A stretch of DNA of 64,000 bases, from positions 36,329 to 100,328 of the IMG/VR virus record IMGVR_UViG_3300032236_000862. One strand, written 5' to 3'. Positions 9,694 to 47,047 of the stretch are shown piece after piece (position 1 is the stretch's first letter; each line of letters starts with the position of its first letter). This DNA is from a virus. A program made the translations under genes and the position numbers. The notes under the pieces were generated by a model. That model worked only from the letters and a program-made list of their open reading frames with translations. It had not been told where the DNA came from and did no database searches.

Positions 9694-9816
9694 ATGGGTG
9701 ATAACTGTTATCACTGTGGTGATGTATGTACCTGTTCGATTCGGGATTGGATGTGTGCTGATTGTCAGCGCAACGCCTTCTCCTGTGAGTGCGGGTCATA
9801 TGAAGATGAAGACTAA
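9694..9816 (+). CDS. 40-aa zinc miniprotein
   Basis: ATG at 9694 follows GAGGAGG by 7 bases; TAA at 9814-9816. Eight cysteines and a histidine in 40 residues: CYHCG, CTC, CADC and CECG, arranged as two close pairs or a small treble-clef/rubredoxin-like ribbon. Too small to carry more than one metal cluster. Not recognised beyond that. Confidence 0.7.
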   Translation: MGDNCYHCGDVCTCSIRDWMCADCQRNAFSCECGSYEDED

Positions 9817-9836
9817 TGCTCAGAAAGGAGCAAACT

Positions 9837-10058
9837 ATGAAGATGATCTATCTCGCATATATCTATGGCTGGGCTAGTGGAGAGCCATACAACAAGATGC
9901 TTGGCGTTTATAGCACTCGTGAGAAGGCTGAGCGTGCCATTAAGCAGTATCTTGCTAAGTACCCTAAAGACTACGATGGTGAAGCCTTCGAGTCAGATGT
10001 ATTCCCTGAGGTGCTGGACTCTTATACAGCCAAGGTAACAAAGGATATGATGCTATGA
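9837..10058 (+). CDS. Small unknown protein
   Basis: A 73-aa product starting at the ATG at 9837, chosen over an upstream in-frame ATG at 9816 because AAAGGAG lies just before 9837. It reads MKMIYLAYIYGW... and contains a helix with STREKAERAIKQYLAKYP, reminiscent of small phage proteins that modulate host proteins, but no family is recognised. The stop overlaps the next start (ATGA). Confidence 0.7.
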   Translation: MKMIYLAYIYGWASGEPYNKMLGVYSTREKAERAIKQYLAKYPKDYDGEAFESDVFPEVLDSYTAKVTKDMML

Positions 10059-10739: not shown

Positions 10740-10853
10740 ATGTTCGGCTGGCTTATCACCTTCCTGCTTGCAGGTTGGCTCGTAATGACCCTTATCAACA
10801 AGCAGTATGAAATTGACCAAGAAGACTACGATTTTAGAGAGGAAGGACGATGA
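10740..10853 (+). CDS. 37-aa small membrane protein
   Basis: ATG at 10740 after AGAAAGGAAATACT; TGA at 10851-10853. One transmembrane helix (about residues 2-21, FGWLITFLLAGWLVMTLI) is followed by an acidic tail. The stop overlaps the start of the WhiB-like gene. Function unknown. Confidence 0.6.
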   Translation: MFGWLITFLLAGWLVMTLINKQYEIDQEDYDFREEGR

Positions 10854-11164
10854 ATGGTAACAACATCGCAGTACTCACAGAGCGGAACGACCTATCTTGG
10901 CACGATAGGGCTAGTTGCGTGGGAATGGACACGGAGTTATTCTACTTTGAGCCTAAACTCAAAGGGCAAGCGAAGCGAGATAAAGCACGTATCGCTAAGG
11001 CTATCTGCGCAGGTTGTCCGGTCAAACTCCAATGCCTCGTTGACGCTGTCACCAGAGATGATAGACACTCTATTCAGGGAGGTACTACCCCAGAGGAGCG
11101 AGGTTCTCTCCACGAGAGCGTTGCCTGCTGGCCATTAGAAAAGGTGCTAGCGTGTATCAAGTAA
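10850..11164 (+). CDS. WhiB-family Fe-S regulator (copy 1)
   Basis: A 104-aa protein with the four WhiB cysteines C23, C53, C56 and C62 (CAGCPVKLQC) and the downstream turn region as HSIQGGTTPEER, where cellular WhiB proteins have GIWGG. The W is replaced by Q here, which may alter contact with the host sigma factor. WhiB proteins bind a 4Fe-4S cluster and the SigA C-terminal domain; phage copies can act as dominant inhibitors of host WhiB2-type regulators. Start overlaps the previous stop by four bases. Confidence 0.9.
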   Translation: MNGNNIAVLTERNDLSWHDRASCVGMDTELFYFEPKLKGQAKRDKARIAKAICAGCPVKLQCLVDAVTRDDRHSIQGGTTPEERGSLHESVACWPLEKVLACIK

Positions 11165-11923: not shown

Positions 11924-12337
11924 ATGGCTAGAATCACCAACCTCATCAACAAGGCTGATGCTCTCAAGCAGTTAAACGCTGCACTGAAGAAGGCTAACGC
12001 TGAGTACGATAAGGACTCCAAAGCATATGTGGCCGCTAAAGCCATCTATGACAAAGAGATAGTTGCATACAACAAAGCCGTTGTTGCAGCCGGTATCGCA
12101 TACCTAAAGTCTGTTGATACCAACAAAGCAAATCAATTCAGTGCTAGGTACGGAAGTACCATAACACACGTTGACTTCAACATCAACATTGGATTGAAAG
12201 AACCAAGCCTAGACAAGGCACAGCCGTATAGAAATATGATTGAGCGTATTGAGAAGCAGATTCGTTCTGTTTCAATTATGTCCGGCGAAACCTTCAATGC
12301 CAGCATGTTGCATGACGATTTCTTCAACTGCTTGTAA
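11924..12337 (+). CDS. Unknown helical protein
   Basis: A 137-aa product. The ATG at 11924 is chosen because AAAGGAGGG lies 7-13 bases upstream; an in-frame upstream ATG at 11885 lacks one. A long K/A/Y-rich helix or coiled coil covers about residues 5-65, followed by a mixed region with SARYGSTITHVDF. Not recognised. Its 3' end is followed by the hairpin AGTTCTT/AAGAACT (12364-12387). Confidence 0.75.
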   Translation: MARITNLINKADALKQLNAALKKANAEYDKDSKAYVAAKAIYDKEIVAYNKAVVAAGIAYLKSVDTNKANQFSARYGSTITHVDFNINIGLKEPSLDKAQPYRNMIERIEKQIRSVSIMSGETFNASMLHDDFFNCL

Positions 12338-14921: not shown

Positions 14922-15233
14922 ATGGCAATAGATGGACCAGTTAATCCTTGGTCAGACCAGATGCCCGCCCAAGACTATATAAGTTGTGATAGTTGCGGTC
15001 ATGGTATCGGTAAGACTCAAGCATTCACACAAATCTACAACCTTAGATATCGTGCAAATCAGTATTTCCATGCCGACCATCTGGGTTGTTCTGCAGCTAC
15101 TCAACTCAAGAATAGCCGCCCACGTATAGTGCTCAATCGTTACCGCAAAGGCATCATCAGCGAGCTGATGTATGGCGGAGATGGTGGCGAGGGAGACAGC
15201 TATGCCGATAAGGTTGATGATCTTGTCGAATAA
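14922..15233 (+). CDS. Zinc-finger-like protein, 103 aa
   Basis: CDSCG near residue 22 with later H/H/C (FHADHLGC) forms a plausible C2-HC zinc site; the C-terminus is acidic. The pattern resembles small phage HNH/LIM-like ribbons but lacks a nuclease motif. It is the last gene before the structured gap 15242-15409. Confidence 0.6.
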   Translation: MAIDGPVNPWSDQMPAQDYISCDSCGHGIGKTQAFTQIYNLRYRANQYFHADHLGCSAATQLKNSRPRIVLNRYRKGIISELMYGGDGGEGDSYADKVDDLVE

Positions 15234-15241
15234 GTAACACC

Positions 15242-15409
15242 GTTGTTGGTTGGTCAAGCCTACTTCAAGCATACTTGATCGAACCTAGACCAGAGTAATT
15301 TAAAGGCTCACGCATTAGTAGTACGTGATAACTAATGTATGCGAGATGAGAAGATAATGTGCGGAGGCATCCAGTCCCTGTGAGCATCAGGGGTAGGCCA
15401 ACCAACAAC
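15242..15409 (+). ncRNA. Candidate structured RNA closed by a 14-bp terminal stem
   Basis: GTTGTTGGTTGGTC (15242-15255) pairs with GGCCAACCAACAAC (15396-15409), one wobble. Inside are TCAAG/CTTGA, CATTAGT/ACTAATG (15313-15337) and CCCTG/CAGGG (15376-15392) hairpins, so a multi-branched fold of about 168 nt is possible. It ends 18 bases before the 15428 start, just ahead of AAGGAG. It may be a cis-acting leader of the AAA+/VWA operon or a free-standing RNA; no known class is recognised. Confidence 0.5.
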
Positions 15410-15427
15410 CCTTACTAAGGAGAGCAT

Positions 15428-15667
15428 ATGTGTCACGAATGTGGCGATGAAAACTACGGAGATATGAATCAGATTCCACCTGAAGAGATGGAAGAGTTCA
15501 TTGACTTCGCATGTCTGCAAGTATCTAAAGTAATAGATAAAGCAGAAGATAAAGGATTCCTTTACCAACTCATTACTGAGTGGCCAAGGGAAAGGCAAGC
15601 GGCATTCGCTCTTGCTACGATACTAGAGGAACGATTAAACTCGTCCTGGCAAGAAGAAGGGGAATAA
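15428..15667 (+). CDS. Unknown 79-aa acidic protein
   Basis: Begins MCHECGDE, so a single CxxC sits at the N-terminus, followed by acidic helices. ATG after AAGGAGAGCAT. It is the first gene after the structured RNA and is separated from the AAA+ gene only by its stop codon. Confidence 0.65.
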   Translation: MCHECGDENYGDMNQIPPEEMEEFIDFACLQVSKVIDKAEDKGFLYQLITEWPRERQAAFALATILEERLNSSWQEEGE

Positions 15668-17056
15668 ATGGACATCTCAATGTTCGTTGAATCGTACGAG
15701 CCTACTATGGGCAACCACCGTCGTCAGATATTGGTGGTTCCATACAAGGACGGCATCAATCTCTACTCTCGTGTGACTGATGGTACTAAGGGCACTCACA
15801 ATAAGTGGGAGCCAACAACCCTAGACACACTAACAAGTGAGGTTAAAGATAACGAGCAAACAACTCGTCGTCCTGTAGGTGTGTACGTAACATCTGCTGA
15901 TGTGCGTGCCATTGATAGCAAGGGCTATTCTCCAGTCCTAACTACCAAGGCAGTAGGCGCACATAACAAGTCCATTGCAGAAGTTAAATCCGATGTGATG
16001 GATATCGTAACAGGCTTCTACTCTCAAATCGAGGTAGGAGATGACCAACTGGAGGAATACGTGATAGATAACCGAGCAACAACTAGCCCGCTAGTCGTTC
16101 CCGTGCCAACACAAACACTCGATGCTCCGGCCCAACAAGCCGCTCCTGCATTCAATGTGTCGTTGGCCACAGTTCCACCATTGCATCTAGCACAACGCTA
16201 TGTGCATCGCAAGGTCTACAACGTTGAAGACTTTGCTATCTTTGATACCGCTCGTGCTGATGGTATCAACGTGCTTATCTACGGCCCAACCGGCCCTGGT
16301 AAGACAACAGCTGTAGAAGCGTGGGCCGCTGATCGTGGCTTGCGTATGGCTACAGTATCTGGCAACGCATCTATGGAGTCACGCCAGTTGTTCGGTGGCT
16401 TCATTCCTGACGGCAATGGTAGTTATGGCTGGATTGACGGTCCAGTAACTGACGTTGTCCGTAACGGTGGTGTTCTACTACTGGACGAGATGAACTTCAT
16501 CAGTCCTAAAATCTACACCACACTCTATCCACTAACCGATGGTCGTCGTACTATCACTCTGCTCGACCATATGGGCGAGACAATCACAGCGCATCCTGAT
16601 CTTACGATCTTTGCGACTATGAATCCTGACTACGTAGGTACAACACCTCTCAACTATGCAATGCGTAACCGCTTTGATATCCAGTTGATGTGGGATTACG
16701 ACGATGCTGTCGAGGAGAAGCTTGTTAGTAGCAAGGCTCTTCGTACACTAGTCAAGTCTCTTCGTACTGAAGCAGCTAAGGGTCAGTACGATACTCCAAT
16801 CTCTACTAACATGCTGATCGAGTTCAGTGACTTTGTAACCAAGCTTGGTTATGACTTCGCAGTTGAGAACTTTATCGCTCACTTCGGCTCTGACGAGCAA
16901 GCGTCTGTACGTCTGGTCTTCCAGACACATCAGTACAACATCCAATCTGACTTCGGTATTGCACCGGAGATCAAGAACGATGAGTCAGAATCAACACAAA
17001 CACAATCTGATCGTTTAAAAGCATGGGTCGCAACAGCCAATTCAATGACGGTCTAA
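15668..17056 (+). CDS. MoxR/CobS-type AAA+ ATPase
   Basis: A 462-aa protein. The first 170 residues form a phage-specific domain. The AAA+ module carries Walker A GPTGPGKTT (about residue 206), Walker B GGVLLLDEMN (about 267-276), sensor-1 ATMNPDY and the MRNRFD arginine-finger region, all as in MoxR/CobS-like ATPases. These remodel partners through VWA-domain proteins, and the next gene is such a protein. Two CAACACAAACA copies lie in it (16107 and 16992). Confidence 0.85.
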   Translation: MDISMFVESYEPTMGNHRRQILVVPYKDGINLYSRVTDGTKGTHNKWEPTTLDTLTSEVKDNEQTTRRPVGVYVTSADVRAIDSKGYSPVLTTKAVGAHNKSIAEVKSDVMDIVTGFYSQIEVGDDQLEEYVIDNRATTSPLVVPVPTQTLDAPAQQAAPAFNVSLATVPPLHLAQRYVHRKVYNVEDFAIFDTARADGINVLIYGPTGPGKTTAVEAWAADRGLRMATVSGNASMESRQLFGGFIPDGNGSYGWIDGPVTDVVRNGGVLLLDEMNFISPKIYTTLYPLTDGRRTITLLDHMGETITAHPDLTIFATMNPDYVGTTPLNYAMRNRFDIQLMWDYDDAVEEKLVSSKALRTLVKSLRTEAAKGQYDTPISTNMLIEFSDFVTKLGYDFAVENFIAHFGSDEQASVRLVFQTHQYNIQSDFGIAPEIKNDESESTQTQSDRLKAWVATANSMTV

Positions 17057-17067
17057 GGAGGTGGTAA

Positions 17068-18897
17068 ATGTTTGACGACAATCTAAATGAGCGTTATATG
17101 GAACAGCGTGATGAGGAATCTCAATTACGCTCTATCAGATTAAACGCTCTATGCCGTGTCTACGAACAAGCTGACAGGGTTATTACCGGTGATCCGGTTC
17201 TAGTCCACGTGGTGCCTGATGGTCCTGCGCCTGCTTGGTCTGATGGCCAGGCTATCTACATCAACGCTAGTGAGATCGAAGACATTGATCTTGAAGCGTT
17301 ATCTCAGGTCAATGGCCTGAACTTCCACGAGCTAGCTCACCATCTGTATACTCCCCGCAAGGGAACAGTATTCATGAAGGAAGTTATCAATCGTGGACTA
17401 ATGCAAGCGGCCAATATGCTGGAGGACCAGCGTATCGAGACGTTGCTTGTAGCCCGCTATCCATCAGTAGCGCCGTTCTTAACTGCAACGTGCGCTCGTT
17501 ATCTAGGTAGTACCCCTGAGGAAGCGGAAGGTGCTTATATGCTCCTACGTGGTCGCAGGTATCTACCTATTCAGATACGTGAAGCATTCAGGGACTTGTT
17601 CTATGAGCCTAAGCTCATCCCTGTAATTGCTGACATCGTAGACCAGTATAGGTTGCTTGTATTCCCCCGTGATTACGACAAAGCAATCGAACTCATCCAA
17701 CGTTGGAACGATGAGGTAATCGGCCAGTTGCCTAACCCACAGAATCTTCCTAAGGGTATGACCGGCTGTACTGATCGTGATGCCGTAGGTAAAGGTCGTC
17801 CTGAACCTGGCAAAGCCCAGGAGAAAGACGCTGAACGTGCCAAGGGTATGGGTAAGGCGGAATCAACTACGCCCAACACAAACAAACCCACAGCACCTGC
17901 ACCAACAACACAGCAAGAAGCACTTGATATGGCAAATGCTAAGCCAACAAATGGTGAAGCATCGCCCCCATCAATCACTCCTGGTACAGGCCATCATGAA
18001 AGCCTAGGTGGTATCCCAGACAGTGTGCACGACATGCTAACGGATGTTATTGACACCGTTATGTCTAGCAAGGAAGTGCTTCAAGATCTAAAAACCAAGC
18101 AAAAGGTAATTGTAGGTGGTGACGGTAAGCATACCGATACCATCAAGCGTGGTCGTTATGACACAGCGCCTGTTCCATCAGACGCAATGGTTACCTATCG
18201 TAAGTTCGCACGTGAACTAGAACGCTTACGTGATGAATGCGAGCCTGCTTGGCACAAGGAGGAGGCTAGTGGCAAGCTCAATGTCCAGCGTGTTATTCGT
18301 GGATGTGAGATTGATGAAGCCTTTGACCGCTGGGATGAAGGCACGGACGGCACTGATGTGGAGGCTGTGATCCTCGTGGATCGCTCAGGCTCTATGTCCG
18401 GTGGCAATGACCGTGGCGCATCCATTGCGTCTTGGACTATCAAGCGTGCACTAGAAGGCATCGGCGCTCCGGTGACCGTGTACTCGTTTGATGACGAGAC
18501 GGAGTTGGCTTACAATCGAACAGAACTAGCCAACAAGACGCACTACAAGTTCATCTACGGCAGTGGTGGCACAGAGCCTTATAGTGCCTTGCTTGCTGCA
18601 GAGCAAGTTCTTCTATCATCTCGTAAGAAGAACAAGATGTTGTTCATTGTTACTGATGGCGCCTTTGGTGAAAAAAGTGACGAGGTTATCGAACGTATGG
18701 GTAAGCGTGGCATTCTTACCGCTATGTCCTTAATCATGGGCGACAATGACATGAAGTTCTACCAAGAACGATATGGCTACAGTGACGATACGTTTAGACA
18801 CGGTGTAGAAATCTATGCCCGTATCAATACGGCTCGTGACCTGCTGCCATTTGCTAGATCAGTAGTTACCGGAGCAATCAGAAAGCGAGGAAGATAA
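17068..18897 (+). CDS. VWA-domain protein with N-terminal HExxH (CobT/DUF2201-like)
   Basis: A 609-aa partner of the preceding ATPase, 11 bp downstream with AAGGAGGTGG before its start. Residues about 1-200 form a metallopeptidase-like domain with HELAH at 87-91; a disordered P/T/A/E-rich linker (about 230-320) follows, then a C-terminal VWA domain with MIDAS motif DRSGSMS starting near residue 438 and the later TDGAFG loop. This architecture matches MoxR-associated VWA proteins, which act as adaptors or chaperone/chelatase-like subunits. Whether the HExxH is catalytic is unknown. Confidence 0.85.
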   Translation: MFDDNLNERYMEQRDEESQLRSIRLNALCRVYEQADRVITGDPVLVHVVPDGPAPAWSDGQAIYINASEIEDIDLEALSQVNGLNFHELAHHLYTPRKGTVFMKEVINRGLMQAANMLEDQRIETLLVARYPSVAPFLTATCARYLGSTPEEAEGAYMLLRGRRYLPIQIREAFRDLFYEPKLIPVIADIVDQYRLLVFPRDYDKAIELIQRWNDEVIGQLPNPQNLPKGMTGCTDRDAVGKGRPEPGKAQEKDAERAKGMGKAESTTPNTNKPTAPAPTTQQEALDMANAKPTNGEASPPSITPGTGHHESLGGIPDSVHDMLTDVIDTVMSSKEVLQDLKTKQKVIVGGDGKHTDTIKRGRYDTAPVPSDAMVTYRKFARELERLRDECEPAWHKEEASGKLNVQRVIRGCEIDEAFDRWDEGTDGTDVEAVILVDRSGSMSGGNDRGASIASWTIKRALEGIGAPVTVYSFDDETELAYNRTELANKTHYKFIYGSGGTEPYSALLAAEQVLLSSRKKNKMLFIVTDGAFGEKSDEVIERMGKRGILTAMSLIMGDNDMKFYQERYGYSDDTFRHGVEIYARINTARDLLPFARSVVTGAIRKRGR

Positions 18898-19237: not shown

Positions 19238-19356
19238 TGATCAAATGCAATCTATGTAAGAACGTATTGGGCCAAGACGACTCGTACGTAGTTCACAGTC
19301 AAACAGCAACGTGCTGGGACTGTTACTTCGGAGAAGACACGGGAGAACGATGGTAA
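19237..19356 (+). CDS. 39-aa zinc ribbon miniprotein
   Basis: ATG at 19237, TAA at 19354-19356. CNLC at residues 4-7 and CWDC near 28-31 make a minimal four-cysteine ribbon. Coupled on both sides by overlapping start and stop codons. Confidence 0.6.
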   Translation: MIKCNLCKNVLGQDDSYVVHSQTATCWDCYFGEDTGERW

Positions 19357-19802
19357 ATACATTCCTGCCATATGCAGACTTCAAGCAAGTGGCGCAATCC
19401 CTAGACGATAGGAGACTCGGCAAGCAACGTGTAGAGGCGTTGCAGATTCTGAGGGCCAACCTGGGTCTAACTGTGGGATGGCGCAATCATCCGGCTGCTG
19501 TAATGTGGCGGGGGCATGAAGGTCTACTAGCCAAATACACCATAACAATCTGTAATGAGTGGACTAAGCGTGGCTATGTAGACAATACCAAGCAGCAAGT
19601 GATCGAACTAATGAAGCAGTACAACCTAAAGCCAATCAAGAAGCCTTGGTGGCTTGGGGCAAGCACGTTTCATGAGAGTCATCAGTCTAACCTCAAGCGT
19701 AAGCTTCCAGAGCATTACGACTTTGATGTAGCTGACGACATGCCATACCAATGGCCAACCCCTGAAGGTACGTTCCGAACAACTAAAAAGGAGAAAGAAT
19801 GA
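19350..19802 (+). CDS. MSMEG_6728-type protein, pyrimidine-dimer DNA glycosylase-like
   Basis: A 150-aa product with start at 19350 (MVNTFLPYADF), chosen because family members begin in this way. Diagnostic blocks: LDDRRLGKQRVEALQILRA, WRNHPAAVMWRGHE, a WLG..TFHESHQSNLKRK stretch and PYQWPTPEG at the end. This family is annotated as related to T4 endonuclease V-like pyrimidine dimer glycosylases; biochemical proof is limited. It probably repairs UV damage in phage or host DNA. Confidence 0.8.
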   Translation: MVNTFLPYADFKQVAQSLDDRRLGKQRVEALQILRANLGLTVGWRNHPAAVMWRGHEGLLAKYTITICNEWTKRGYVDNTKQQVIELMKQYNLKPIKKPWWLGASTFHESHQSNLKRKLPEHYDFDVADDMPYQWPTPEGTFRTTKKEKE

Positions 19803-21910: not shown

Positions 21911-23941
21911 TTAGGCGTTATCTTTGATTAGTTTTACTTCACACGCATCTGTAGTGCAATAGGCCTCACCGATTGCATCAAATGCCATGCCTGCATACAC
22001 ACCGCTCAAATCAATTGGGAAGTGGGTCATGCGGGCTTCTTCGTACTCTTCAGCATTACTCTGAGTGTAAGGCATCTGAGGATATAGCGTATCATCCATG
22101 GCTAGGAAGGATACGGTCTTTAGTTGACCATCATACATATGCAATACGGTTCCGATTGCATCAGACTCGGTCTTTGGGTCAAACGATACGGTAACAGAAA
22201 CAGAGTTATCTGACCAGTACCTCTGAGCAGTGGCAGCGATTGCCATCTTCTCATAGATAGAGACTTCCTTCTCAGAACGCATAGCATCTGACTTCACTGG
22301 GAAGTATACAACAGATGTTCCGTCCGGATCTGAAGCTGACGGCTCAACCTTGTAGTTAGCCATCTTGAACAATGGGAGCATAGGGTCGCTATTAGAGAAC
22401 CTAATTGTGCGCATAAAGAACTTACCGCCTGGAGTCCAGTGAACTCCTGGGGATTCTCCCGCTAGGATTGAGACTGTGCCGGATGGCTTTACTGTGGTCA
22501 TCTTGATTGACTCACGGATACCAAGCCATTCGGAGTAACTCTTATCATAGCCTTGGATGACTGCATAGCCGTCGTCCATCCAGGTACGAAGCAAGGGAAG
22601 ACCCTTCGTATCTGCAAAGTTTGCGATACCGGAGATTGAAGTACCGATGCGGCGGTTGCGCTGCATGATGGCGTTTGTCTCTTCCCAGTGGGTAGGGATG
22701 AGAGTTACAGTCTTGGCATAGAGATAGGCGAACTTGAGCGTGCGCTTAAAATCTTCCAGGCTGTCGTGGCGCCCAATGTAGGTCTCTACCAATGTACAGC
22801 ACTCCATTGATTCCAATGATTGTTCAGCACATGGGTTGTACCCGGCCGCTCTCCAGTCCTTGTTGTTGATCGGATCAGCTAGACGCCCGTACTTACGGGT
22901 GGTGTCCATCCAGATCACGCCAGGCTCACCATTGCGGGCAATACCCTCAATGATCTTTGATAGGTCTTGGCCAACCTCTACCTCAACGGAGTTGTTGGAC
23001 ATCCAGCCCCAACCAGGATTGGCAGGATCATAGGAGTTACGCTCTGGGAACATCTCGGCGTTCTTAAGATTAATAAACTCTTCGTCATCCAAACGGCCAA
23101 TTAGGAGCTCGGCTGAGCGACGGACGTTACCGGAGACTACACACACGCCGATTAGGTTACCGATGTCTGCGATGTCACGGCGAGTCAGCTTTTGGCCAGC
23201 TCTGTTATCAAAGATCTTAGCTAGTTGGTCGTGGAGTTTGATGAGCGGATCGGGTCCAGCCGCAGTACCTCCGAAGGTCTTGATTGGAGTTCCGTATGGT
23301 CGGATTGCCGAGTAGTCAAATGTAGGCTTCTTCGTATCTGGCTTAAGGTAGCTATTGATGACGGCAGCCGTAGATTCGTACCAGCCTTCTCTGGTGTCGG
23401 GGATGACATAGGTGTCTCCTTCTGTAGGTGCATAGATAGTGAAGTCCTTGTCTGCACCCTTGTCATCGAATCCTACGCCTACGCCCAGCATTGATGCCTC
23501 CATCAAGAAAGAGAAAGGCTTAGCCGGATCGTTCTTAGTCATAGCATTTGTAGATACAAAGCTGCAGTTCTGCAACGCTGCAGAGTTTTTCTGTTCATTA
23601 ACCTGAGGAGTTCCCATCATCCATAGGCCTCGGCCAGGTGGGGTCCACTTCAGGTTAAATAGTCGGTCGAAAGCTTCTTTGGCTGAAGTAGCAGCCTTGA
23701 TATCAGACCAAGGCAGGCGGTTCTGCTTGGCATGGTCTTTTTGGAGAGAGTACATGCCGTTGATGACACGCTCACATACATCTGTCCAAGTCTCTTTGGT
23801 ACCGTCCTCTTTAAGACGAGAGTAGGTACGCAAGAAAGTAATTTCCCCAAGAGAGTTGCCAGCAGCATCCTGATAACCCCACGGGACCTTCTTTGACCGG
23901 TACGGAGTTACAAAATCATCTGCGAGTTTAAACGAAAACAC
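21911..23941 (-). CDS. nrdJ: Class II (adenosylcobalamin) ribonucleoside-triphosphate reductase
   Basis: A 676-aa monomeric-type reductase giving deoxynucleotides for phage replication. Key residues: C126 (ALQNCSF), the N369-P-C371-A-E373 active-site triad (NPCAEQSLES), and the C-terminal redox pair C662/C667 (CTTDAC). These match the B12-dependent RTPR family, which works with or without oxygen. GTG start at 23941; an out-of-frame ATG lies just upstream. No NrdR, thioredoxin or NrdH gene is seen beside it, so host thioredoxin probably reduces it. The host or environment must supply adenosylcobalamin. Confidence 0.93.
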   Translation of the reverse strand: MFSFKLADDFVTPYRSKKVPWGYQDAAGNSLGEITFLRTYSRLKEDGTKETWTDVCERVINGMYSLQKDHAKQNRLPWSDIKAATSAKEAFDRLFNLKWTPPGRGLWMMGTPQVNEQKNSAALQNCSFVSTNAMTKNDPAKPFSFLMEASMLGVGVGFDDKGADKDFTIYAPTEGDTYVIPDTREGWYESTAAVINSYLKPDTKKPTFDYSAIRPYGTPIKTFGGTAAGPDPLIKLHDQLAKIFDNRAGQKLTRRDIADIGNLIGVCVVSGNVRRSAELLIGRLDDEEFINLKNAEMFPERNSYDPANPGWGWMSNNSVEVEVGQDLSKIIEGIARNGEPGVIWMDTTRKYGRLADPINNKDWRAAGYNPCAEQSLESMECCTLVETYIGRHDSLEDFKRTLKFAYLYAKTVTLIPTHWEETNAIMQRNRRIGTSISGIANFADTKGLPLLRTWMDDGYAVIQGYDKSYSEWLGIRESIKMTTVKPSGTVSILAGESPGVHWTPGGKFFMRTIRFSNSDPMLPLFKMANYKVEPSASDPDGTSVVYFPVKSDAMRSEKEVSIYEKMAIAATAQRYWSDNSVSVTVSFDPKTESDAIGTVLHMYDGQLKTVSFLAMDDTLYPQMPYTQSNAEEYEEARMTHFPIDLSGVYAGMAFDAIGEAYCTTDACEVKLIKDNA

Positions 23942-28734: not shown

Positions 28735-28736
28735 AT

Positions 28737-29117
28737 CTAATCCTTTGTTGGGTCGTCCATGTTAATCATGCGCATAACGGATTCATCTCCGGCCCGCATA
28801 TTACGCTTAATGCGCTGATCTTTGAGAGAATGGATTGTAGCCTCTTGTTGACCTATTTCAAAATGTTCGGTGCGTGGCAAGATTGCCTTATACTCATCGG
28901 TATTTTGAGCATCGTTTAGGTAATTATCTAGGGCGCCTTCTACGGGCTTAGGAGGTTCGTAACTTACTTGCTCTGGCTCAAAGAGTGCGCCTTTAATCTT
29001 ATTAACTTTATGGCGAAGCTTAGTGCGTCGAGACATGGGAAGATTTACTACGTTGTTTGGGGTATCTAACCCCCTACGAGCAGGATGGTTAGGACCAGCG
29101 TTGCCCATATCGTCCAT
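28737..29117 (-). CDS. Basic polar protein, unknown
   Basis: Start taken at 29117 (MDDMGNAGP), directly after the upstream stop; an in-frame ATG at 29153 would overlap the upstream gene. Neither has a strong ribosome site. Contains MSRRTKLRHKVNKIKG and charged helices. Follows 29119-29400 with no gap. Confidence 0.55.
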   Translation of the reverse strand: MDDMGNAGPNHPARRGLDTPNNVVNLPMSRRTKLRHKVNKIKGALFEPEQVSYEPPKPVEGALDNYLNDAQNTDEYKAILPRTEHFEIGQQEATIHSLKDQRIKRNMRAGDESVMRMINMDDPTKD

Positions 29118-29400: not shown

Positions 29401-29722
29401 AATTGGCTCCTTTGTCTCTTTGTTCTGCTGTGGTTGCAGATACCTTTACATGATGCATCTTGTCTTCAAATTCCATAGAGTCCCAATCGGTTTCATCAGG
29501 CTCAAAATATTTTTTAGCATGTCCTGCACCTACTGCAAAGCCACGGTTATTTGTGGCTGGTGCTTTTTTTCCTGCCATAGGTCCTGCAGGATGATCTTCT
29601 TCATACCGTTCCCAACCTGAAGCGTTGCCTAAAGCTGCCATTGCAGCCTTGTGGCCGGCAATGCCTCGCTCGGTGGCACGTGCCGCTACAACCTTCTTAC
29701 GATTGCGAATCGGACGAATCAT
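29387..29722 (-). CDS. Basic polar protein, unknown, 111 aa
   Basis: Begins MIRPIRNRKKVVAAR, then ATERGIAGHKAAMAALG and a SGWERYEEDHPAGPMAG segment. Rich in A/G/R/K. Possibly a virion-internal or DNA-binding protein by composition only. Confidence 0.6.
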   Translation of the reverse strand: MIRPIRNRKKVVAARATERGIAGHKAAMAALGNASGWERYEEDHPAGPMAGKKAPATNNRGFAVGAGHAKKYFEPDETDWDSMEFEDKMHHVKVSATTAEQRDKGANYGRK

Positions 29723-32013: not shown

Positions 32014-32193
32014 TTACTTAGCAGATGGTGAGGCGTGGTTAATTGCGCCCTTGAGGACTGGACCAAGAACACCAACTAGAGCTGCCCAGGCTACCTTTTT
32101 AAGATCGTGGTTGCCGGTCTGCCAGATAGCTACGCCTGCAGCTGCAGTTGCGTATACATAATGTTCTACCAGTGACTTTGTCTTTGGATTCAT
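32014..32193 (-). CDS. 59-aa small membrane protein, holin candidate
   Basis: ATG complementary to 32191-32193, TAA at 32014-32016. Two short hydrophobic segments (about residues 12-24, YVYATAAAGVAIW, and 34-50, VAWAALVGVLGPVLKGA) separated by a polar turn. Size and place next to the endolysin genes suggest a class II-type holin, which is inference. AGAAGGAAT precedes the start. Confidence 0.55.
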   Translation of the reverse strand: MNPKTKSLVEHYVYATAAAGVAIWQTGNHDLKKVAWAALVGVLGPVLKGAINHASPSAK

Positions 32194-32230
32194 TTTATAT
32201 TCCTTCTCTAGAAGACACCTTTGTGTCCCT

Positions 32231-32249
32231 GGTAATAGTATACAGGGAG
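32231..32249 (-). promoter_or_regulatory. TATACTAT promoter-like element
   Basis: Minus strand CTCCCTGTATACTATTACC, followed by a small GACAC/GTGTC hairpin and the ribosome site of the 59-aa membrane gene. Confidence 0.5.
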
Positions 32250-32255
32250 TCTTGT

Positions 32256-32489
32256 CTACTCGTCAACTTCTAGATTGTTTACGTAAGGAGTAATGATATG
32301 AGATTCTGCGGAAACGTTAGGCTTAGCGGTATTTGTAGTGGGAACTGCAGACCCCGCCAGGAGAGTGGACGCAACAGCAACTAGATGCTTTGGGTCAGTT
32401 GGGTAACCCATCGCCGCCCAAGCAGTCATGCCTGCTGATCCGGATATACCCATGGTGACTGGGTTAGTTAAGTTTAATTTGACACCCAT
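32256..32489 (-). CDS. 77-aa protein with hydrophobic segments, lysis-cassette member
   Basis: Two hydrophobic stretches (about 11-28 TMGISGSAGMTAWAAMGY and 35-50 LVAVASTLLAGSAV) and a polar C-terminus. Directly after the endolysin gene, touching its stop codon. It could be a holin or holin partner; this is not secure. Confidence 0.5.
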   Translation of the reverse strand: MGVKLNLTNPVTMGISGSAGMTAWAAMGYPTDPKHLVAVASTLLAGSAVPTTNTAKPNVSAESHIITPYVNNLEVDE

Positions 32490-33340
32490 TATTTTTTAGC
32501 CTCCGCTACCAAAGCAGCATAGGTTACCGGACCTACGATACCATCAGCTTTTCCTAGTGAAGGATTGGCTTTCTGATAGGCTAGCACGGCAGCCTCTGTT
32601 GCAGCATCAAATGCATTATCAGCAAGAGTAAGAAGCTTTAGTTTAACCAGACCCTGCTCAATAACAAATACGGCTTGGTTCTTTGCACCTATAACAAAAC
32701 TGCCCGTTCCTGGAAAGGCTGGGGCACTGATCGTTGTAGTTGGTTTAGTGGTTGTAGGAGAAGAGTTATTATTAATAACAGCTGCCCCACCTCCGCCTAA
32801 AGCAGTGGCTCCAGCTACAGCTCCCGCAACTTTTTTATTTTGTGACAAGGTTGCGGCCGGCTTTGTTGTTACAGGATAATTAGGGCGAGCAATAGCCATA
32901 ATGTTTAGATAAGGACGGTGACGTAACCAAACGCCATCGCCATTTGCTTGGCTTCCCATCTTATGATCAGCGCTAGTATTGCCCTCAACTGTTGTGATTC
33001 CATCTTTAGAGGCCGCAACAATTATACCTACATGCTCTGCTGTATGACCTGACCAGCTGAAGAATACGATATCTCCTGGTTGTCCAGCATACTTATCAAC
33101 AATCTGACCCTTTTTTTGAAACCAAGATAGGCCATCAGGGCAATAAGAAAAACCTTTAGATGTAGTGGCTGCAACAATAGAGCTCAACCCTGCTTGTGCA
33201 AAACACCATGAAACGAACATTGCGCAATAAGGCTCATGGTTCATTCCGTACCAGACGCCATACTTATTATCATTGTTAGGGCCCTCAACGAAGCCCACTT
33301 CTTTACGTGCGAAGCTTACGACATCAATTCCGCTGCTCAT
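32489..33340 (-). CDS. Endolysin: CHAP peptidase with C-terminal peptidoglycan-binding domain
   Basis: A 283-aa protein. Residues 1-150 form a CHAP domain with catalytic C39 (EPYCAMFVSWCF) and the H of AEHVGIIVAA, then VEGNTS. A low-complexity/hydrophobic linker (about 165-215) includes AGAVAGATALGGGGAAV, and a PG_binding_1-type domain (about 225-283) has FDAATEAAVLAYQKAN and DGIVGPVTYAAL. It degrades host peptidoglycan at lysis. The hydrophobic linker is unusual and could tether it to the membrane. Confidence 0.88.
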   Translation of the reverse strand: MSSGIDVVSFARKEVGFVEGPNNDNKYGVWYGMNHEPYCAMFVSWCFAQAGLSSIVAATTSKGFSYCPDGLSWFQKKGQIVDKYAGQPGDIVFFSWSGHTAEHVGIIVAASKDGITTVEGNTSADHKMGSQANGDGVWLRHRPYLNIMAIARPNYPVTTKPAATLSQNKKVAGAVAGATALGGGGAAVINNNSSPTTTKPTTTISAPAFPGTGSFVIGAKNQAVFVIEQGLVKLKLLTLADNAFDAATEAAVLAYQKANPSLGKADGIVGPVTYAALVAEAKK

Positions 33341-33819
33341 TTGTATACCAATACTTCTGCTAGATCGCCTGGGGTTACTAAGTCATCCTTCTTATTAATG
33401 ATAGGAAGACCGACCGTACGATAGGAGTAAGCTACCAATTCGGAACAAAACCAGCTCTGTGTGTTAGCTATCTTTTTCCAAAATACGTTTGGACGTATGA
33501 ATCTTAGCCCTACAATACGAAAGAATAATGCCGCAATGTCAAGGAATGCGTATGGCTTGCCAACCTCTTTTAGAGCGGTCTGGACTATCTCTTCCCTTAC
33601 AGCATCGTCTATGGAATCGTGATGATTCCAAGCAATACTTGGGTATTTGCTAGAAGGGCTGATAGCTACTCCGGTGGGATTGGCTTCAACAATAGTGCCG
33701 CTACCTATGTAGATAAAAGCATGGTTCCACCTAGATGCGGTACCTACTCGGATAAGCTTACCGATAATTCCGTTTGTCTTTACTACCCCGTAGTCTCCTG
33801 GGCGTGGTTCGTATGACAT
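33337..33819 (-). CDS. NlpC/P60-like (YiiX/YebB-type) cysteine hydrolase
   Basis: A 160-aa product started at 33819 (MSYEPRPGDYG), since AGGGGG lies just before it and a more distal ATG overlaps the upstream gene. Catalytic-type H in RWNHAFIYIG (about residue 32) and C in WFCSELVAYSY (about residue 122, circularly permuted order typical of YiiX/YebB-like proteins). Likely a second wall or amide hydrolase beside the CHAP endolysin. Confidence 0.75.
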   Translation of the reverse strand: MSYEPRPGDYGVVKTNGIIGKLIRVGTASRWNHAFIYIGSGTIVEANPTGVAISPSSKYPSIAWNHHDSIDDAVREEIVQTALKEVGKPYAFLDIAALFFRIVGLRFIRPNVFWKKIANTQSWFCSELVAYSYRTVGLPIINKKDDLVTPGDLAEVLVYK

Positions 33820-33820
33820 G

Positions 33821-34132
33821 TTACCCCCTATTGAGGGAGTGCTCTTCGATATGCTGCTCAAACTTTCCCTCAAGTTTTGAAACGCTTTGCTGAACCTCTA
33901 CCTGATTTGTACGAAGTTCCTGGAGTAAAGGTAGTACCTGCAGTTTAAGAACATCGCTCATAGAAGAACCGTGATTAGGGGTTACTTCGGCTTTAATAAC
34001 CTTTAGATCTTCTTTGCTCTCTTCAATGAGATGCTTGACTGTCTTTTTAGCTACAAACCACAAGGCACTTCCTACACCTGCTATTACGAAGAAGTACGAA
34101 TATACAACGGTGGCCCAGTCACTAGCGGTCAT
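33821..34132 (-). CDS. DUF2746-like membrane/coiled-coil protein
   Basis: A 103-aa protein with one N-terminal membrane helix (about 8-28, VVYSYFFVIAGVGSALWFVA) and a long coiled coil (about 70-98, LLQELRTNQVEVQQSVSKLEGKFEQHI). This fits the actinophage DUF2746 type found in lysis cassettes, perhaps acting as a holin or spanin-like membrane factor. Confidence 0.65.
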   Translation of the reverse strand: MTASDWATVVYSYFFVIAGVGSALWFVAKKTVKHLIEESKEDLKVIKAEVTPNHGSSMSDVLKLQVLPLLQELRTNQVEVQQSVSKLEGKFEQHIEEHSLNRG

Positions 34133-34154
34133 TAGGGATCTCCTATAATAGAAA

Positions 34155-46299: not shown

Positions 46300-46508
46300 T
46301 AACTATCTCGTCTCCAATGTAGATAAGAACGTATGTATGTTGCGGTGTAAGCTAGCGATGCAAATATAAACCCGTACTGGTGTGAGGTAATAGCATAGAT
46401 CATCCATAGCGATTCGTTAAAGCATAGTACAAACCAACCCCAAATGCTTTTACGACCAACAAAGTAAATGCCGGTTACTCCGATAACAGCTAGTACCCAA
46501 GACCACAT
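46299..46508 (-). CDS. Small integral membrane protein
   Basis: A 69-aa protein with two or three membrane helices (about 3-18, 23-40 and 45-62), basic C-terminus (LHWRRDS). Its W/F-rich pattern resembles pieces of PnuC-type transporters but is too short to assign. Coupled to both neighbours by overlapping codons. Confidence 0.6.
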   Translation of the reverse strand: MWSWVLAVIGVTGIYFVGRKSIWGWFVLCFNESLWMIYAITSHQYGFIFASLAYTATYIRSYLHWRRDS

Positions 46509-47047
46509 CAGACGTACTGCATCAATCTAGTCTTGACTGCAAACTCTAAGTCCTCGATTGTGGAGTTGTTGTGAAGGTATGCGTCAAAGTCCCAGTTATC
46601 CATATCGTGTTCTGATACGTGAGAGTTAACTGCCTCAACACCGGTGCGCTCTACACGCCAAATCTGCCCGCCATTGGCCCGTATCATGTCAGCTTCATTA
46701 AAGAATCTAACGTCTGTAATAACATATTTAAGGTCTAGTCTAGGTTCATCTAGCATAGACTTCATTGCTTGATGTACCCAAAACCCTTCACCAAATACCT
46801 TGCGAGCACCAACCCCAAGCTCTTGAAGCAACCTGCGAACTTCCGGAGTTTGTTTGGAAACCTCCCAACCATACTCATCAACCAAATCAGATAAACGTGA
46901 GTTGCCTGAAATAAGTGGGTTGAGCGTATACAGCAATGTTCTAATTGGATCCGCAAAGGCGACCCTTGTAAACCCATGGTTTTCTACTAGATACTTAGCC
47001 ACGGTATCTTTACCTGACCGTGCGTAACCTGATAGACCAATAATCAT
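46508..47047 (-). CDS. Deoxynucleoside monophosphate kinase
   Basis: A 179-aa P-loop kinase: MIIGLSGYARSGKDTVAKYL (Walker A GYARSGKD), RVAFADPIR, LLQELGVGARKVFGEGFWV and VITDVRFFNEADMIRANGG. This matches phage T4 gp1/AAA_33-type dNMP kinases, which convert dNMPs to dNDPs for DNA synthesis. It fits beside the replication genes and complements the reductase. Confidence 0.85.
   Translation of the reverse strand: MIIGLSGYARSGKDTVAKYLVENHGFTRVAFADPIRTLLYTLNPLISGNSRLSDLVDEYGWEVSKQTPEVRRLLQELGVGARKVFGEGFWVHQAMKSMLDEPRLDLKYVITDVRFFNEADMIRANGGQIWRVERTGVEAVNSHVSEHDMDNWDFDAYLHNNSTIEDLEFAVKTRLMQYV

Follow-up and report, generated by a model that had tools for sequence, protein, structure and literature searches.

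A rod-like RNA with an exchangeable core ahead of a MoxR–VWA operon in related lake phages

The locus and its neighborhood

The question raised by this locus is what occupies the gap ahead of a phage operon made up of a small gene, a MoxR-type ATPase gene and a VWA-domain gene. The window, by which we mean the whole 64 kb stretch of DNA that was analyzed, covers bases 36329–100328 of a 100,328-bp IMG/VR virus record. The upstream gene ends at 15233 and the small gene begins at 15428, which leaves a gap of 194 nt. An earlier, sequence-only reading had proposed 168 nt of it as a candidate multi-branched ncRNA, closed by a 14-bp stem and containing at least three further perfect hairpins, an arrangement it called typical of riboswitches and functional RNAs. 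The genes that follow, and the short leader in front of them, are:

15410–15427, + strand: leader of 18 nt between P1 (the closing stem) and the start codon, with ribosome-binding site AAGGAG; spacing of 17–25 nt in 22 of 22 close members
15428–15667, + strand: small gene of 79 aa, starting MCHEC, predicted all-helical; relatives in 23 loci; AlphaFold pLDDT 80
15668–17056, + strand: MoxR/CbbQ/NorQ-type AAA+ ATPase; Pfam AAA_5 at 1.7e-19; NorQ, CbbQ and midasin chains matched
17068–18897, + strand: VWA-domain protein; weak VWA_2 match at 4.2e-05

The small protein, for which three helices are predicted, has no Pfam or PHROG match. This acidic, all-helical protein with its MCHEC start adjoins the RNA throughout the close clade and belongs to no database family. 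PHROGs and Pfam tie the MoxR/VWA pair (15668–18897) weakly to cobaltochelatase-type proteins (porphyrin biosynthesis, CobT), and the same phage encodes a B12-dependent ribonucleotide reductase at 21911–23941. A pyrimidine dimer DNA glycosylase (Pyr_excise, 1.4e-20) lies downstream in the same gene run, at 19311–19802. That the host is an actinobacterium is suggested by a WhiB gene at 10850–11164, along with the reductase and a family A DNA polymerase of the same record. The hosts of the phages carrying the RNA also appear to be actinobacteria, and the related phages are lake phages. A MoxR profile search of genome contigs found no relative, so it gave no host or prophage link.

Compensatory changes and the rod fold

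The closing stem 15242–15255/15396–15409 is present, with 13 Watson–Crick pairs and one U-G at 15254/15397. Taken alone, it is no better than chance at the scale of the 64 kb window: there is one stem of at least 12 Watson–Crick pairs closing 80–250 nt in the window and zero to three per shuffled window (mean about 0.7). Therefore, homologues were needed to decide. Folding of the 168 nt does beat dinucleotide shuffles, with z of −2.9 and −3.1 in two runs.

Homologues were collected by scanning for MoxR, for VWA and for the small protein, and the largest of these scans yielded 65 distinct MoxR loci. We use 22 loci that have the same closing architecture upstream of the small gene, the window included and one kept per near-identical pair. 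Compensatory change in the closing stem had been set beforehand as the test, and the 22 loci pass it. Pairing holds in 97.5% of cells over P1 and the adjoining helix P2, where both partners have changed in 13 of the 17 pairs; none of 500 shuffles scores as high, and slid partners reach at most 46% paired. In more distant members, P1 is wholly changed yet paired (e.g., GTTGGCT to AACTAAC), a weaker test than that on the 22 loci because these members were chosen partly by their stem. The parts of the RNA in the window are as follows:

15242–15255, + strand: P1, 5′ arm of the closing stem, pairing with 15396–15409; 12 of 14 positions change on both sides over 22 loci
15256–15257, + strand: AA, part of the conserved AR/A internal loop that separates P1 from P2; the first A does not vary, even in distant members
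15258–15260, + strand: P2 5′ strand GCC, pairing with GGU 15392–15394; members have GCC/GGU, GCU/AGU, GCC/GGC and ACC/GGU
15263–15264, + strand: short rod helix with 15389–15390; C-G/U-A exchanges
15269–15279, + strand: conserved strand GCAUACUUGAU, forming three short helices with 15369–15381; both-side changes across core types
15284–15301, + strand: basal rod helices and internal loops, 5′ side (15284–85, 15291–92 and 15299–301, pairing with 15363–64, 15358–59 and 15350–52)
15307–15345, + strand: apical hairpin, 15307–15319 with 15331–15345; pairs covary across core types
15350–15364, + strand: basal rod strand, 3′ side, from the rod consensus and covariation
15369–15381, + strand: AUCCAGUCCCUGU, 3′ partner of 15269–15279; its CCCUG alternatively pairs with 15388–15392
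15389–15395, + strand: P2 3′ strand (GGU 15392–15394) and A15395, the latter invariant in 22 of 22 rows, distant members included
15396–15409, + strand: P1, 3′ arm of the closing stem, covarying with the 5′ arm
15254–15397, + strand: exchangeable core cassette, unrelated in the near-identical L050/L051 phage, where the P1 arms outside it (15242–15253, 15398–15409) are identical

The 168 nt are thus laid out as P1, the AR/A loop, P2, a run of short helices and conserved internal loops, and the apical hairpin. The cores fall into types, of which that of the window is type A. RNAalifold on the ten alignable type A cores gives an unbranched rod of 47 pairs, 22 of them with compensatory changes (the pair 15277/15371 is G-C in five and A-U in five), and the internal loops are nearly invariant while the helices covary. 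The covariance model R1, trained on these 10 sequences, has zero branch points. It recovers 12 held-out loci at full length and at the same site, with E values of 2.5e-6 to 3e-15, and BLAST mostly fails to connect their cores to type A. Scanning 626 kb with R1 finds nothing beyond the homologous loci. In the R1 alignment of all 22 loci, 93.4% of cells of the whole rod are paired. This figure comes from an alignment that was itself fitted to R1; among the 12 held-out rows, pairing amounts to 84% of cells in the inner helices and 98% in P1/P2. Both-side changes occur in 42 of 47 pairs, none of 500 shuffles is as high, and slid controls reach at most 42%.

The branched fold of the sequence-only reading was therefore wrong, the consensus being a rod of stacked helices and internal loops. 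The three perfect hairpins can all be drawn: 15265–15269/15274–15278 (TCAAG/CTTGA), 15314–15319/15331–15336 (ATTAGT/ACTAAT) and 15376–15380/15388–15392 (CCCTG/CAGGG). However, only the apical one (ATTAGT/ACTAAT) is clearly kept in homologues. TCAAG/CTTGA is paired in only 63% of cells. The figure for CCCTG/CAGGG is 86%, and this hairpin shows little covariation and competes with rod pairs. A model built from the local hairpins was rejected, since its covariation score is far below that of the rod. What was right in the earlier proposal is the more general claim that a structured RNA with a function precedes the small gene and the AAA+/VWA pair, and this claim is now strongly supported. Judged from the compensatory changes in its helices, it is a genuine structured RNA, and an unbranched rod on the + strand is near-certain. 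The strand follows from the excess of G-U over A-C cells (82 vs. 18), which makes the folded strand the + strand, that of the operon.

Members beyond the 22 loci extend the picture. A second model, R2, built from all 22, adds two more (L127 and L135). It finds no RNA in the Gordonia and Brevibacterium cultured phages with the nearest annotated MoxR (L047–L049). A distant group (L075, L076, L078, L079, L098, L100 and L105) was folded separately. It is mainly rod-like with compensatory pairs, and the same internal helix, AUACUUGA with UUCCAGU, was found in it independently. Its kinship is less certain because it rests on position and shared motifs: R2 does not recover this group, and reaches L085 only at E 0.045.

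Exchange of the core

The analysis shows a conserved fold for the rod, its strand, site, spacing and single copy, and the exchange of its modules between phages. The genome carries one copy, and every match of the exact type A core pattern in 2.9 million viral contigs falls on a contig of this group. A DNA pattern for the 3′ end, tried on viral contigs, gave chance matches besides the known loci. The 3′ end of P1 lies 17–25 nt upstream of the small-gene start codon in all 22 close members, with no room for a promoter between. In distant members, the distance from P1 to the start is about 70 nt where the start codon was found, and a terminator-like hairpin, sometimes with a T-tract, stands between P1 and the ribosome-binding site.

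Over most of its 93 kb, the L050/L051 phage is 95–98% identical to the window phage. The two share 99.3% identity at the moxR start and have the same outer P1 arms, but the core between these arms is only 47% identical. Two contigs from different metagenomes carry this L050-type allele, which argues against an assembly error. Conversely, the window core shares 86% identity with cores from phages in which MoxR identity is only 64–72%. When the core types are mapped on a tree built from moxR and the start of the VWA gene, they require 12 changes, no fewer than shuffled labels, which require 11.6 on average. Type A, a group defined from the RNA and not from the tree, is not one clade on that tree (AU p 1e-7). 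Exchange also occurs inside the rod. The L107 core is a chimera, with basal parts matching L065 and the apical part matching L062/L063. Because the apical half is contiguous in sequence, exchange at the basal/apical boundary leaves both halves foldable. Inverted cassettes were considered and rejected: no core matches another in reverse, save for loci fetched on the other strand.

These exchanges suggest that the rod probably recognizes something that varies between hosts or phages, although frequent recombination alone, without selection for different types, may be the cause. The small protein is unlikely to be the type-specific partner, since two phages with unrelated cores share 98.5% identity in the small gene. 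Whole-genome comparison of two core-swapped phages, made in search of a partner gene, yielded ordinary mosaic gene differences and no obvious candidate. Other blocks differing between the window and the near-identical G001 phage are at 32023–34138, 28735–29115, 29401–29614, 46305–46519, 9698–10052 and 11943–12334; those inspected are coding.

It is usually a conserved core by which a structured RNA is recognized. In this family, the core is a cassette that comes in several old alleles, set in an outer architecture that stays the same. Should the alleles be specificity types, the conflict of these phages with their hosts or with each other could be read from the locus, which would also offer a handle on the unexplained MoxR–VWA operons of many phages.

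Possible functions and known relatives

The RNA belongs to an uncatalogued family. Rfam 15 has no family at or near gathering score at the site in the window, with none at E up to 10 on 15100–15560, and none at the site in 15 related loci; L100 likewise gave only a chance miRNA-like match. BLAST of the region and of its relative L100 against 50,697 annotated phages found no match, and no report of the element appears in the open-access literature searched. Structured phage RNAs and leaders are already known; it is the cassette-like core that is unusual.

The explanation we tentatively prefer, without placing it beyond its competitors combined, is a cis-acting leader RNA of the small gene–MoxR–VWA operon, with exchangeable modules to which a variable partner binds. 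The rod would be part of the transcript directly 5′ of the operon and would set its expression in cis. A trans factor of the phage or host would bind it and alter ribosome access 17–25 nt downstream or, in relatives with the terminator-like hairpin, transcript read-through instead. The basal and apical modules would recognize the factor, and recombination inside P1 and between helices would exchange them among phages. We infer the cis action, the trans partner and its mechanism, and specificity as the reason for exchange. Against a leader, a 14-bp P1 is too stable for an obvious switch. No mutually exclusive pairing was found, and P1 overlaps neither the ribosome-binding site nor the terminator-like hairpins. 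A free-standing RNA would likewise account for the rod followed by a terminator-like hairpin in relatives.

That free-standing RNA is the main rival, and we consider it quite possible. This phage RNA would act in trans; it would be processed out of the operon transcript or, in relatives, end at a terminator of its own. It would bind a protein (the MoxR–VWA complex, host RNA polymerase) or act as a decoy for host defence, with type exchange shifting specificity or evading recognition. A terminator-like hairpin a few nt after P1 would release the whole rod in L089, L103 and L102, where it has a T-tract, and in the L075–L105 group; the long closing stem suits a stable free RNA, and exchange that ignores the flanking genes suits a trans function. 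However, none of the 22 close members, the window included, has a terminator after the RNA; their ribosome-binding site adjoins P1, and the rod is found only at this operon site. Strong hairpins, some with T-tracts, lie between the RNA and the small gene in L089, L102, L103, L084, L091–L095, L099, L108, L112 and L075–L105, but not in the window clade.

Several known RNAs invite comparison here. 6S RNA is rod-like, about 180 nt long, with paired ends. It has one large central bubble mimicking an open promoter, whereas the present RNA has many small internal loops, and the 6S Rfam model gives no match even at a permissive threshold. Y RNA, which works with Ro60, is a rod RNA with paired ends that is encoded beside a VWA-containing protein and is also found in mycobacteriophages. 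The VWA protein of the window lacks the TROVE domain (Pfam finds only the weak VWA) and has no match to a solved Ro60 in the PDB. The retron msr-msd has a hypervariable interior inside a 5′/3′ closing stem, upstream of genes. The present RNA differs in having no adjacent reverse transcriptase, its neighbors being the 79-aa protein, MoxR and VWA, and in having the base that adjoins P1 paired as part of P2. Phages and prophages also carry the large structured RNAs GOLLD and ROOL (Rfam; PMC12286853), whose function is unknown. They are several times longer, at several hundred nt, far more complex and often near tRNA islands, whereas ours is an unbranched rod of 130–270 nt across members (168 nt in the window) before one operon, and no Rfam model matches it in the window or in related loci.

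A related view, which we regard as rather unlikely, takes the rod as an allelic recognition RNA. Diversifying selection would keep a few old core types in the phage population, either because they escape a host sensor or because co-infecting phages interfere with one another in a type-specific way. The types would move by homologous exchange within P1 and between the basal and apical halves, without regard to the genes that follow them.

It is improbable that the rod is a processive antitermination or attenuation element that binds RNA polymerase as it emerges, so that a hairpin just downstream is passed. The HK022 put RNA consists of two short stem-loops. Put (PMC9378689) and EAR resemble the present RNA as phage or operon leader RNAs upstream of terminators, and in relatives a terminator-like hairpin does follow directly (in L089 the next gene is only about 30 nt away, and no promoter lies between). 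However, the window has no terminator after the RNA, and exchange of core types is hard to explain if the target is the conserved RNA polymerase.

A metabolite riboswitch has so far found no support, and we give it little credence. The leader position and the nearly invariant internal loops of type A are what such an RNA would have. However, unrelated core types replace one another before the same operon, there is no Rfam match, and no switching pairs were found. A core swapped wholesale among near-identical phages is unlike a conserved ligand-binding aptamer. Equally doubtful is a passive spacer, or an element of mRNA stability or processing, for which any rod would suffice. The kept outer geometry, the free core sequence and an intercistronic position only 8 nt from the upstream gene would agree with it, but the type A core is more conserved than the neighboring genes between distant phages, and conserved internal loops recur in the separate L075–L105 group. 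A DNA element (a protein-binding inverted repeat, ssDNA origin or recombination site) is suggested by P1 arms that bound the exchanged segment, but it was already disfavored and can practically be set aside, since the arm sequences differ completely between groups with pairing kept and the G-U excess marks the + strand.

A second structured motif occurs in the same phages, about once per locus. In it, two covarying stems flank an internal loop, CGGGA/GAAAA, that is symmetric and invariant; the same pattern has no match in the window. Its sites are:

L005, 2966–2989; L007, 3004–3026; L009, 1497–1518; L011, 3000–3022; L029, 4078–4100
L075, 833–855; L076, 1620–1640; L079, 1596–1618; L085, 1897–1919; L106, 3350–3370

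In L005–L011, this motif lies just 5′ of the rod RNA.
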